From assembly GCF_015291745.1 (NCBI RefSeq), contig NZ_CP030059.1, forward strand, positions 5,421,501-5,485,500: DNA of 64,000 nt, read 5' to 3'. Positions 25,852 to 36,112 of the stretch are shown one piece after another (position 1 is the first letter of the stretch; each line of letters begins with the position of its first letter). The notes beneath the pieces were generated by a model. It was not told the origin of the DNA, did no database searches, and worked only from the letters and a program-made list of their open reading frames with translations. This DNA comes from Bradyrhizobium sp. CCBAU 53351 (GTDB lineage Bacteria; Pseudomonadota; Alphaproteobacteria; Rhizobiales; Xanthobacteraceae). The position numbers and the translations under genes were made by a program.

Positions 25852-27159
<1,308 letters not shown>

Positions 27160-32567: not shown

Positions 32568-33143
32568 TCAACTGCGCCGCTGCGCCCGTTGTGCCCCCGT
32601 TTCCGTCGCAAAGCCGTAGATCAGCGCCAGCCGGTCCAGACATTCGCGAAAACGCCGCGAAAAATAATCGTTCCAGCGCTGGGTTCGGACGGCGCGACGC
32701 GCGCCGATCTGGTCCATGGTCAGGCCCAGCACCAGCACGTCATGCACCAGCGCGGCGCCGTCGGTGCCGAGTTCGCGCTCGATCCGGTTCAACCGCAGCA
32801 CCGCTTGGCGCTGGCTGTCGGTGACAGGCTCGCGCGTACGCGCGCCATCGACATATTCCCTCGTCGGATCCACCGCCTGAGGCCCCCGCTCCGCCCGCTC
32901 CCAATCGTTCTGGAAGGCTCGCCCACCGCGGTATTGCGCTTCGTCGATCTGATGATGTGCGTGCAGCCGCCCCAAGGGATCACCACGGATCGACCGGATG
33001 GCCAGGATCTTCTCGCCGGAATCGAGCGCCAACGGATTGTCGACCTCGACCTCCGCCACTTCGGCGTTGAACGGGACATCACGGGATCGCCGGTCGTAGA
33101 TCTGAGCCAATTTGTAGGACTTGTTGCGTTGGGCACGCGCCAC
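32568..33143 (-). CDS. Conserved hypothetical protein (191 aa), DUF6456-like pattern
   Basis: Residues: MARAQRNKSYKLAQIYDRRS, VPFNAEVAEVEVDNPLALDS, GEKILAIRSIRGDPLGRLHA, YRGGRAFQNDWERAERGPQA, VDPTREYVDGARTREPVTDS, QRQAVLRLNRIERELGTDGA. The segment with AG(x)RFxxDWxRAxxxP and a helical tail ending LIYGFATET recalls DUF6456/phage-integrated-protein relatives; I hold this as a pattern match only. Soluble. Lies between the repressor/GcrA pair and the exported gene. Function unknown. Confidence 0.65.
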   Translation of the reverse strand: MARAQRNKSYKLAQIYDRRSRDVPFNAEVAEVEVDNPLALDSGEKILAIRSIRGDPLGRLHAHHQIDEAQYRGGRAFQNDWERAERGPQAVDPTREYVDGARTREPVTDSQRQAVLRLNRIERELGTDGAALVHDVLVLGLTMDQIGARRAVRTQRWNDYFSRRFRECLDRLALIYGFATETGAQRAQRRS

Positions 33144-33191: not shown

Positions 33192-33722
33192 TCAGGCCGC
33201 AGAGACCAGCCTCAGCACGACGGGACCGGGGGCATGGGCGGACGCGGCACCAGAGCGACGCGTCAGGCGCGCATGCGGCGCGCAATAGCTGGAGCCCGGC
33301 CGGCAGGGATGACCGCAAAAGGCGATCTCCTCCCCGTCCTTGTCGCCGCCATAGGGATAGCGGCAGTCAACGGGCTCGAGTTCGACCAGCTGGATCAGGC
33401 GCGGCTGAACGCCGACGCAGCGCAACTTGATAGGCGCCGCCGGCTTCATTGCGGACTTCGGCGGCAAATTCAGGTTCGGCAACACCGCGCGGCGCGGCGA
33501 AACCGGAGCCTCACCCGGCAAATACGGCGCGACCGAAGGACTAGAAATCCATTCCGGTACGACGAGCCCCAGCCGCTTGGCGCGGCCGATCACCGCATTG
33601 CGTGTGTAAGCCGTTCCAAACCTTGCGTTAATCTGTCTGCCGATCTCCGCATAAGACATGCCCATGCGAATATAGTCGCGAAGCGCGCCGGAATGCTCCG
33701 ACGGCCAATGGCCCGGTTCCAT
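33192..33722 (-). CDS. GcrA-family cell-cycle regulator paralogue
   Basis: 176 residues. N-terminal helix-turn-helix region: LRDYIRMGMSYAEIGRQINA, followed by YTRNAVIGRAKRLGLV (TRNAVIG-x-x-x-RLGL is the GcrA signature). Linker, then a C-terminal module with CRYPYGGDKDGEEIAFCGHP and GSSYCAPHARLTRR, matching the GcrA CRW/YPxGD...FCG...YCxxHxxxA metal-free sigma-interaction region. Classical GcrA binds methylated DNA and sigma-70; this divergent copy is one of several paralogues in Bradyrhizobium. Divergent from the S24 repressor (33889) with operators in the gap, so it may share its control. Confidence 0.9.
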   Translation of the reverse strand: MEPGHWPSEHSGALRDYIRMGMSYAEIGRQINARFGTAYTRNAVIGRAKRLGLVVPEWISSPSVAPYLPGEAPVSPRRAVLPNLNLPPKSAMKPAAPIKLRCVGVQPRLIQLVELEPVDCRYPYGGDKDGEEIAFCGHPCRPGSSYCAPHARLTRRSGAASAHAPGPVVLRLVSAA

Positions 33723-33778
33723 ATTGCTGTCCTGTGATCAGCCTCCTCTCATCGAACGACCAGGAGGCGAAACACACA

Positions 33779-33850
33779 TTCCGGTATTCCGAAGATCAAG
33801 TCAAGCAATAATTCTGATATTCATAATTGCATCAATTCCGAATTTCGGAT
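33779..33850. promoter_or_regulatory. Three operators for the S24 repressor (O1-O3)
   Basis: Three related 15-bp sites: O1 TTCCGGTATTCCGAA (33779-33793), O2 TTCTGATATTCATAA (33812-33826), O3 TTCCGAATTTCGGAT (33836-33850). Shared pattern TTCYGNWWTTCNNAW with partial dyad symmetry; O3 contains a perfect 13-bp palindrome TCCGAATTTCGGA. They lie between the divergent GcrA paralogue and the repressor. O3 occupies the spacer of a candidate promoter (see next), so binding there should block the repressor gene's own transcription. Confidence 0.75.
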
Positions 33851-33856
33851 TACAAG
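33827..33856 (+). promoter_or_regulatory. Candidate promoter of the S24 repressor gene
   Basis: TTGCAT (33827-33832) and TACAAG (33851-33856) with an 18-base spacer holding operator O3. O3 starts 9 bases from the first base of the -35 box, the same placing as O5 in the other promoter. Weak -10 box; the geometry is the main support. Confidence 0.55.
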
Positions 33857-33888
33857 AGGCAAGACGGTGCGCAATCGAGGGAATCATC

Positions 33889-34497
33889 ATGTTGGACGTT
33901 GCAATGATCGAGCGGGGCCTAGAGAAGACGGGCAAGAGCAAGGGCGGCCTGGCGGCGGCCATGGGCGTGCGGCCCGGCGCGGTCTCGGAGATCCTCGGCG
34001 GCGAACGTCTGGTGAAGGCTTCGGAGATCATTCCGATCATGGAATATCTCGAGCTCAATCTCGCGCCGATCATGGGCCGGGTCGGTGCCGGCGCCGTGAT
34101 CGAGCCGGATTACGAGCAGGTTCCGCCGGAGGGGCTTGGCGACATAGCGCTGCCCTTCCCGATCATGGAAGAGACCGTCGCATTCGAGATCGTCGGCGAT
34201 TCGATGCTGCCCAAATACGAGAGCGGTGACGTGATCGTGGTCTACAAGGACCAGCGTCACCCGCTGTCGAGCTTCTACGGCGAGGAGGCCGTGGTCCGCC
34301 TCAAGACCGGCGAGCGTTATTTGAAGACCATCGAGCGGGGAAAAAGTCCGTCAGTCGTCAATCTCACCAGCTTCAATGCCAAGCCGATCGTCGGCGTCAA
34401 GCTGGAGTGGGTGGGGGAGATCTGCCTGTCGATGCCCAAAGGGCAGCTCGAGCGGCTCCGCGCCAAGTCGGCACGCCCCCGCAAGAAGAGCAGGTGA
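33889..34497 (+). CDS. S24-type (LexA/CI-like) repressor
   Basis: 202 residues from ATG 33889 with GGGAATCATC before it. N-terminal Cro/CI helix-turn-helix (GGLAAAMGVRPGAVSEILGG, about 19-38) and a C-terminal S24 protease/dimerisation domain: cleavage-type site VGAGAV (about 65-70), FEIVGDSMLPKYESGDVI (Ser nucleophile about 105) and VVRLKTGERYLKTIER (catalytic Lys, probably 146). The residues for self-cleavage are present, so it may respond to RecA-type signals like phage repressors, or bind ligand. The frame upstream to 33724 crosses the operators and is not used. Basic tail KSARPRKKSR. Confidence 0.88.
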   Translation: MLDVAMIERGLEKTGKSKGGLAAAMGVRPGAVSEILGGERLVKASEIIPIMEYLELNLAPIMGRVGAGAVIEPDYEQVPPEGLGDIALPFPIMEETVAFEIVGDSMLPKYESGDVIVVYKDQRHPLSSFYGEEAVVRLKTGERYLKTIERGKSPSVVNLTSFNAKPIVGVKLEWVGEICLSMPKGQLERLRAKSARPRKKSR

Positions 34498-34504
34498 CGT
34501 CGAT

Positions 34505-34555
34505 TTCCGTTATTCGGAAATTCCTGTTGACTAGATTCCGGTTTTCAGAAATACT
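34505..34555 (+). promoter_or_regulatory. Promoter and two operators (O4, O5) of the downstream gene
   Basis: O4 TTCCGTTATTCGGAA (34505-34519, near-perfect dyad) and O5 TTCCGGTTTTCAGAA (34536-34550). A promoter TTGACT (34527-34532), 17-base spacer, AATACT (34550-34555) has O5 inside the spacer, 9 bases from the -35 start. Bound repressor would block RNA polymerase. It drives the gene at 34598. Confidence 0.78.
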
Positions 34556-34597: not shown

Positions 34598-34873
34598 ATG
34601 CAGTATTTCGTCGTGATGATCGACTACGGACGACGCGGCCGCGAGGCCGTCGTCGATCCCGAGATCACCAGACGGGAGGTCGTCTCCCGCATCGCCTCGG
34701 GTGAATACCAGAACGTCTCGTTCATCCACGAGATCGCGGAAAATATCGTCGAAGACGTCACCGAGGCCATCCTGAGCGAGGCCGCCCTGCCCCAGATCCC
34801 GCCCGAAGATATCGACCTGCAGGCAACCCGCCTCGATCACATACGGGACCTGCGCAAGCACGAACGGACGTGA
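34598..34873 (+). CDS. Hypothetical protein under the S24 repressor (91 aa)
   Basis: Start at ATG 34598 (MQYFVVMIDYGRRGREAVVD), preceded by GCAGGGCCGTTTAC; a GTG at 34571 is possible. PEITRREVVSRIASGEYQNV, SFIHEIAENIVEDVTEAILS and an acidic-helical end. Soluble, mixed helix-strand. The form IDYGRRGREAVVDPE.TRR.V..RI..GEY.NVSFIHE is a conserved uncharacterised type in Bradyrhizobium. It is the only clear target of the adjacent repressor, so it may be the effector of the unit. Function unknown. Confidence 0.75.
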   Translation: MQYFVVMIDYGRRGREAVVDPEITRREVVSRIASGEYQNVSFIHEIAENIVEDVTEAILSEAALPQIPPEDIDLQATRLDHIRDLRKHERT

Positions 34874-34911: not shown

Positions 34912-35886
34912 TTACACCGTCAGCACGGTCGATCCCGTGGTCTTGCGCGCGGCGAGATCGGCATGCGCCTTGGCGGCGTCCTTCAGCGGATAGGTCTGGT
35001 GCACCTCGATCTTGACCGCACCGGACTTGACGACGTCGAACAGCTCGCCTGCCATCGCAACGAGGTTTTCACGCTTGGCGGCGTAGGTGAACAGCGTCGG
35101 GCGGGTGACGTAGAGCGAGCCCTTCTGAGCCAGCAGGCCGAGATTGAGCGGCTCGACCGCGCCGGAGGACTGACCGAACAGAGCGGCGACTCCGAGTGGC
35201 GCGAGGCAGTCCAGCGATTTCAGGAACGTGTCCTTGCCGACGGAATCATAGACCACCGGGACCTTTTTGCCGCCCGTGATCTCGTCGACCCGCTTCACGA
35301 AATCCTCGCGGGTGTAGATGATGACGTGATCGCAGCCATGCGCCTTGGCAAGCTTGGCCTTCTCGTCGTTGCTGACGGTGCCGATCACGGTCGCGCCGAG
35401 GTGCTTGGCCCACTGGCTCAGGATCAGGCCGACGCCGCCGGCTGCCGCATGCAGCAGGATGGTGTCACCGGCCTTCACCCGATAGGTCTGCCGGATCAGA
35501 TATTGCGTGGTGAGCCCTTTGAGCATCATCGCCGCAGCGGTCTTGTCGTCGACGCCATCAGGCACCTTCAGCAAACGGTCCGCAGGGATCAGCCGCGCCT
35601 CGGAATAGGCCCCGAGCGGCGAGGCGCCGTAGGCGACGCGATCGCCGGGCTTCAGATCAGTGACACCGGGTCCGACCTCCTCGACGATTCCGGCCGCCTC
35701 GCTGCCGAGCCCGCTCGGCAGTTGCGCCGGGTACAGGCCCGATCGGTTGTAGATGTCGACGAAGTTGAGGCCGACCGCGGTGTGGCGGATGCGCGCCTCG
35801 CCCGGCCCCGGCTTGCCGACGCTGACCTCCTCCCAGACCAGGACTTCCGGACCGCCGGTCTCGTGAAAACGAATGGCATGCGTCAT
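34912..35886 (-). CDS. qor: Zinc-independent NADPH:quinone oxidoreductase (MDR family)
   Basis: 324 residues from ATG 35886 with GGGAGCAACGCCC. MDR-type two-domain enzyme: THAIRFHETGGPEVLVWEEV, GLNFVDIYNRSGLYP (QOR active region), GSEAAGIVEEVGPGV, NADPH-binding LHAAAGGVGLILSQWAKHLG (AxxGGVG), IIYTREDF, VYDSVGKDTFL. No zinc-binding cysteines of alcohol dehydrogenases. Reduces quinones, one or two electrons, cytoplasmic. Length typical. Monocistronic by spacing. Confidence 0.92.
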   Translation of the reverse strand: MTHAIRFHETGGPEVLVWEEVSVGKPGPGEARIRHTAVGLNFVDIYNRSGLYPAQLPSGLGSEAAGIVEEVGPGVTDLKPGDRVAYGASPLGAYSEARLIPADRLLKVPDGVDDKTAAAMMLKGLTTQYLIRQTYRVKAGDTILLHAAAGGVGLILSQWAKHLGATVIGTVSNDEKAKLAKAHGCDHVIIYTREDFVKRVDEITGGKKVPVVYDSVGKDTFLKSLDCLAPLGVAALFGQSSGAVEPLNLGLLAQKGSLYVTRPTLFTYAAKRENLVAMAGELFDVVKSGAVKIEVHQTYPLKDAAKAHADLAARKTTGSTVLTV

Positions 35887-36112
35887 GGGCGTTGCTCCCT
35901 TATCGTTGGGGTGAGGATCCGAAAAAACCGGATTGGCCGCAGAAATAGGCATTCGGTCTGCCCGTTACAGTACAGTGACGTAACAAGAATGTCACAGCGA
36001 GCGACAAACCTCCGCCGTTCCAGCTCCGTTCGAAAGAGTTGATGACGCGCCTGAGGCGACCGGCAGTAGCTTCTGCGCGGGTTTGGTGGGTCGCATGCGA
36101 AGGAAAGCCGAG

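Follow-up and report, generated by a model that had tools for sequence, protein, structure and literature searches.

What is an S24-type repressor gene with five matching operators doing in the chromosome of Bradyrhizobium sp. CCBAU 53351, and which genes does it control? The initial annotation of the window (the whole 64,000-nucleotide stretch analyzed, positions 5,421,501 to 5,485,500 of contig NZ_CP030059.1) had described a domesticated or stand-alone switch that governs itself and one small neighboring gene. A literature search, with most subscription papers outside its reach, found no paper on the S24 locus. From left to right, the locus consists of a DUF6456-type gene (minus strand), a GcrA-family gene (minus), operators O1 to O3, the S24 gene (plus), operators O4 and O5, a small gene referred to here as SM (plus), and a zinc-binding dehydrogenase gene (34912-35952, minus).

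The S24 gene (33889..34497, plus strand) encodes a CI-like S24/XRE repressor of 202 aa, which matches PF00717 with 43.2 bits (cut-off, 23.3) and a PHROG transcriptional repressor; its match to HTH_31, 24.1 bits, is under the cut-off of 27. Searched against PDB sequences, the protein had no match at 1e-5, and only weak HTH or irrelevant matches were obtained up to an E value of 1. Residues A67-G68, S105, and K146 are invariant in 11 aligned proteins; the cleavage site and the Ser align with those of the LexA protein of the same genome, and the Lys was placed by eye. From these conserved residues, control of S24 by DNA damage is possible. The gene was also considered as the lexA gene of the genome itself and rejected in this role, as the best S24-domain match, 112 bits, is the LexA-like sequence at C1:3460869. 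LexA-type boxes have the form GTTC-N7-GTTC; three are present in the window, against 1.66 expected, and none lies at the S24 locus.

The product of the GcrA-family gene (33192..33722, minus strand, 176 aa) passes the threshold of PF07750 with 159 bits and falls short of that of the NCBIfam GcrA equivalog (41.7 bits; cut-off, 280). The genome from which the window comes (G000) harbors three GcrA-family genes (C1:7071770, C1:3296127, and C1:5454737), of which the copy at the locus scores lowest. For the DUF6456-type gene (32568..33143, minus strand, 191 aa), the PF20057 score of 19.1 bits is under the cut-off of 26.3, and PF20057 searches of G000 gave no match; many of the 120 homologs listed for the protein are assigned to PF20057, a phage homolog reaches 25.9 bits with the same family, and in phage relatives the gene holds the position of the late regulator. 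The structural model of the protein (pLDDT, 70) had no match in the PDB at an E value of ≤0.001; sigma region 4 and Q21 chains were among the matches at ≥1.1, which we take as a hint and not as evidence. SM (34598..34873, plus strand, 91 aa) belongs to no named family in Pfam, NCBIfam, or PHROG, and its model (pLDDT, 77.5) had no structure match at an E value of ≤0.001. PADLOC gave no match for the four proteins, and a defense system was rejected. Elsewhere in the window, a gene on the minus strand (25852-27159) encodes a protein that is FecR-like by eye and whose tail is a Gly-Asn-rich repeat; a tandem repeat at this gene (25916-26101) has a period of 9 and 20 copies.

All five of the 15-bp sites that had been placed around the repressor gene, three before S24 and two before the next gene, are exact matches (starting at 33779, 33812, 33836, 34505, and 34536 of the plus strand). 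The window was expected to contain 0.06 such matches, and none of 100 shuffles contained five or more. The operators, to which no strand is assigned, have the form of an imperfect dyad, TTCYG-N5-CNGAA. O1 (OR1-like, 33779..33793) lies inside the spacer of the divergent promoter, O2 (OR2-like, 33812..33826) adjoins the -35 of the S24 promoter, and O3 (OR3-like, 33836..33850) lies inside the spacer of the latter, while O4 (OL-like, 34505..34519) is upstream of the SM promoter and O5 (OL-like, 34536..34550) is inside its spacer. A scan of the whole 8.34-Mb genome gave 11 matches, 5 of them at the S24 locus; a reversed control pattern gave 3, so that the six matches outside the locus are near background. 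When the dyad was relaxed (no A/T-rich center, one mismatch), the window held 11 sites against 7.9 expected, a number reached in 15 of 100 shuffles. The operator signal consists of the A/T-rich center, the position, and the clustering, not of the relaxed dyad over the window.

The initial annotation had named two promoters, in each of which an operator begins 9 nt after the start of the -35 box. Both were found as described: TTGCAT at 33827 is followed by O3 at 33836 in the probable, weak S24 promoter (33827..33855, plus strand; TTGCAT-17-TTACAA, from sequence and alignment), and TTGACT at 34527 by O5 at 34536 in the SM promoter (34527..34555, plus strand; TTGACT-17-AATACT, from alignment and a consensus scan). 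The account was incomplete, having overlooked the minus-strand TTGACT at 33804-33799, which would be the -35 of a probable divergent-operon promoter (33776..33804, minus strand) with a poor -10 and O1 in its spacer. A third, conserved candidate promoter/operator pair faces the GcrA-family/DUF6456 operon, which is probably the main target of the switch. The SM promoter is the only one of the three that a consensus promoter scan picks up.

The arrangement extends over the genus. We aligned 30 loci (L012-L041), the window's own and 29 relatives, representing the best 30 of 34 orthologs in 36 Bradyrhizobium genomes. In every one of them, three dyads precede S24 and two precede SM, no site deviating by more than two letters. 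One of the ten positions scored accepts any letter, which leaves nine informative letters per site, and dyads scoring at least 8/10 number 172 in the 8,708 bases inside the two promoter stretches (21.8 expected) and 252 in the 100,582 bases outside them; the score by itself is permissive, so the argument rests on position and spacing. The divergent TTGAC is invariant in all 30 loci; its distance from O1 is 11 nt in 29 loci and 12 nt in the other one. In 29 loci, the -35 of SM keeps a distance of 9 nt to its operator, and in 28, all but L028 and L029, O2 adjoins the [TC]TGC of the S24 promoter. The far clade has no evident S24-promoter -10, which is unclear there because the S24 leader is too short.

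A larger set of 80 named loci (all from Bradyrhizobium, retained from 159 confirmed ones, at least 9 also among the 30) gave the same picture. The operator triple before S24 (score of ≥26/30) is present in 79, L283 scoring 25, and the operator pair before SM (≥17/20) in 76 of the 79 loci that have SM. The commonest spacings are 33+24 nt for the triple (56/80) and 31 nt for the pair (57/79). The divergent -35 stands at 11 nt in 75 of the 80, at 12 nt in 1, and was not found in 4; the SM -35 stands at 9 nt in 71 of the 79, at 11 nt in 1, and was not found in 7. No triple appeared in 800 shuffles (maximum, 23) or in 1,424 other stretches (maximum, 24), and no pair in 790 shuffles (maximum, 16). 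The proposal that S24 regulates itself and controls its neighbor is well supported by conserved sites and spacing.

The 15-bp pattern also occurs in other genomes: there are 57 matches in G020, 18 in G012, 16 in G006, 13 in G001, and 11 in G019. Operator-like dyads, often TTCTGATTTTCAGAA, belong to an intergenic repeat that is dispersed in G020 and G006, as do some of those in G001 (stretches examined, L113-L132 and L139-L155), and in some copies of the repeat a dyad follows TTGAC by about 10 nt. These 15-mers are what could be said for regarding the five sites as chance occurrences or as a dispersed repeat instead of operators. We find this hardly credible, given that G000 has no excess of matches outside the locus and that site and spacing are conserved while the flanks diverge; a chance pattern is excluded by the window and genome counts, the conservation, and the controls at zero. 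The five operators are real, and they are probably functional.

Selection at the locus was estimated by the Nei-Gojobori method against the window, as medians, with loci whose lengths were off by more than 12 residues excluded. Median dN/dS for S24 was 0.034 in the near clade (17 loci) and 0.20 in the far clade (12 loci); the corresponding values were 0.125 (17) and 0.175 (11) for SM, 0.14 (17) and 0.21 (9) for the DUF6456-type gene, and 0.32 (16) and 0.43 (9) for the GcrA-family gene. Judged by these values, all below 0.45, the four genes are under purifying selection. The S24 reading frame is intact in 30/30 loci, the GcrA-family gene is split or partial in two (L024 and L025), L031 and L033 have a disturbed SM, and in L033, L034, and L036 the DUF6456-type gene lies beyond the examined flank. 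That S24 shows the strongest conservation among the four genes and is never broken, with a fast-evolving and occasionally split GcrA-family gene beside it, would also be expected if the repressor were a lock, kept mainly because the derepressed activator operon harms the cell and having no positive host function. We consider this rather unlikely, since purifying selection on SM and the DUF6456-type gene (0.125 to 0.21) would be unexpected for a pure lock, from which cells could, moreover, escape via loss of the activator.

Where, then, did the locus come from? S24 orthologs are found in 187 of 195 genomes of the genus, including 180 of 183 good ones. A search of 149 genomes of the family at an E value of ≤1e-25 gave 10 S24 matches, comprising 7 within the genus and 3 others, the best at 53%. 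Of the 18 near loci, 17 carry the dehydrogenase gene on the right; it was found in none of the 12 far loci, so the far clade has a different right flank.

Relatives of these genes occur in phages. The podophage ppBeUSDA76-2 (OP596614), which is reported to be spontaneously produced by B. elkanii USDA 76 (PMC10127595), resembles the Bradyrhizobium locus in having a DUF6456 homolog (48%) two small ORFs before the terminase gene and an SM homolog (48%) one small ORF from ERF, and its terminase is related to the Bradyrhizobium relics described below (68 to 78% in the longer matches). It differs in lacking an S24 homolog and operators beyond chance; control of this phage by S24 was rejected, as it has no more one-mismatch dyads than chance would give (5, against 6.26 expected). 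Among 15 IMG/VR loci with DUF6456 homologs, L200, L204, L209, and L210 have terminase or head-gene homologs just downstream, and DnaA-like genes are present in phage relatives of the locus.

Two relatives, L138 and L189, have an S24 gene opposite a small Cro-like gene with operator sequence between them, which argues for a phage control region. In L138 (G133:C14), which is probably a prophage of another genus, an exact dyad separates the S24 relative (53%) from the small gene, which is followed by a DnaA-like gene. L189 (IMG/VR 3300020015_000012) is close to the Bradyrhizobium loci in S24 (79%), SM (72%), and the GcrA-family gene (48%) and, by eye, has the operator triple and pair, but unlike them still has the Cro-like gene and DUF1376. 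L189 is filed as viral, but it may be chromosomal, as it seems, by eye, to end in an ABC-transporter gene. The small genes of L189 and L138, which are 61 to 65% identical, were called Cro-like from their size, position, and mutual similarity, and Pfam gave nothing for the L138 protein. Within their flanks, a Cro-like gene is present in none of the 30 loci and none of the 80 named loci; DUF1376 is retained in 3 and 2 of them, respectively.

A matching operator in a phage-like locus such as L138 raises the possibility that S24 is kept for silencing incoming phages with the same operators, the other genes being passengers. This seems quite improbable to us: the live Bradyrhizobium phage ppBeUSDA76-2 carries no such operators, only L189 of 10 viral loci with S24 relatives has a strict dyad beside S24, and the supposed passengers are under selection too.

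The initial annotation had stated that no phage structural genes are near, which holds inside the window but not beyond it. A 109-residue terminase match (G000:C1:5409761-5410087) is located 11.4 kb beyond the left end of the window, at a distance of 45 kb from S24. Terminase homologs were found in 105 of the 195 genomes of the genus and in none of the other 90, while S24 is nearly universal. The analysis comprised 108 entries, one for each of the 105 genomes and, for G417, G457, and G475, a second one, leaving out further matches, for example those in G001, G016, G020, G024, and G465 and those of G492, G506, G523, G526, and G531. For 25 of these entries no S24 position was available, some being from genomes without S24, and 15 lie on other contigs. 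In 66 of the remaining 68, the terminase is on the DUF6456 side of S24, in the same orientation, at 7.4 to 75.8 kb (median, 29.3 kb); the exceptions are G010, in which the match is a live prophage, and G545, with a 33-residue match 149 kb away. Of the 66 relics, 16 span the whole terminase and 50 span less, mostly near 277, 155, 108, or 38 residues. G000, G004, G020, and G022 all have a GNAT gene after the relic, which suggests one shared insertion. Few phage homologs lie between switch and relic in G000, and in six regions searched for operators at the relic, dyads are concentrated around S24, with one stray in G020. In G014, a long run of homologs of ppBeUSDA76-2 late genes (terminase, capsid, and tail fiber types) occupies the relic side (C318:96903-128797).

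A nearly universal, single-copy S24 gene beside host genes could also be an ordinary chromosomal LexA-like stress regulator of nonphage origin with its own small regulon. We regard this as very improbable, because the neighboring genes have phage homologs, the relatives carry Cro-like and DUF1376 genes, and the terminase relics lie on the side expected for a phage.

In the CI/Cro switch of phage lambda, OR1 to OR3 separate the repressor gene from the early-right operon, and OL lies before the early-left gene. The S24 locus shares with it a repressor of the predicted cleavable type (cleavage site and Ser/Lys pair), three operators between the repressor and a divergent operon in the early-right position, additional operators ahead of an early-left gene that is read in the same direction as the repressor, and an O2 that adjoins the -35 of the repressor promoter. 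Unlike lambda, the Bradyrhizobium loci lack Cro and most phage genes, two left operators are recognized instead of three, and the spacing is 33+24 nt. Our results make it quite likely, though not certain, that an ancient temperate phage left its lambda-type control region at the locus, where it has been retained, now Cro-less and vertically inherited in Bradyrhizobium. The earlier term "domesticated" fits such an origin; "stand-alone" does not, in view of the OR/OL-like region and the late-gene relics outside the window.

In the proposed mechanism, S24 as CI would bind the dyads and, from O1, shut the promoter of the GcrA-family/DUF6456 operon, the old PR. From O2 it may activate its own gene, as O2 adjoins the -35 of its weak promoter and would be centered near -43 of a transcript starting at about 33862, the position of OR2 in lambda. 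From O3 it would repress its own gene, and from O4 and O5 it would shut SM, the old PL. As S24 keeps a LexA-type cleavage site and the Ser/Lys pair, RecA-stimulated cleavage could release all three promoters. Against the control-region reading stand the failure of two of these promoters in the consensus scan, the sub-threshold Pfam score of the window's DUF6456-type protein, the split GcrA-family gene in 2/30 loci, a relic without operators, a live phage with neither operators nor S24, and the gap of 7 to 76 kb between switch and relic, which lies outside the proposed account.

After release, the DUF6456 protein may act on transcription as GafA and GafZ do. Homologs of GafA, an activator of gene transfer agents, are annotated as DUF6456 in two reports (PMC9638019 and PMC9765227), and in Caulobacter, according to PMC9632790, the LexA-like protein RogA represses gafYZ. 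As described there, RogA resembles S24 in being a LexA-like S24-type repressor on the promoter of a GafZ/DUF6456-type operon and in being widespread in alphaproteobacteria; it differs in lacking the catalytic residues kept in S24, in binding GGAA-N4-TTCC repeats, in having a gene not linked to gafYZ, and in controlling a partner that is the DnaA-like GafY instead of a GcrA-family protein. By analogy, then, the S24 unit would work like the RogA circuit yet departs from it in several features. An RcGTA-type agent was rejected, as GTA_TIM (PF13547) is absent in G000 and was found in a Caulobacter control.

The switch and its sites have been kept genus-wide while the phage genes beside them decayed, which suggests that the locus probably still serves the host. 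Tentatively, and as a less likely reading, the phage decision circuit, minus Cro, may now be a genus-wide host regulator in which a cleavable, damage- or stress-sensing CI releases a GcrA-family/DUF6456 activator pair that has been rewired and now acts on host promoters or a particle system. If so, the particle-system version would be that of species that keep late genes, and the dispersed operator-like repeat of some species would extend the reach of the switch to many places. The locus offers a natural experiment in domestication, with a lambda-like control region preserved throughout the genus, the phage genes it served decaying, and intermediate stages among relatives in which Cro or DUF1376 is kept and the terminase is whole or cut. 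It would join a lambda-type switch to the logic of gene transfer agents, in which a LexA-like repressor governs a DUF6456 activator, and the origin of repressor/DUF6456 circuits thereby becomes testable in laboratory Bradyrhizobium.
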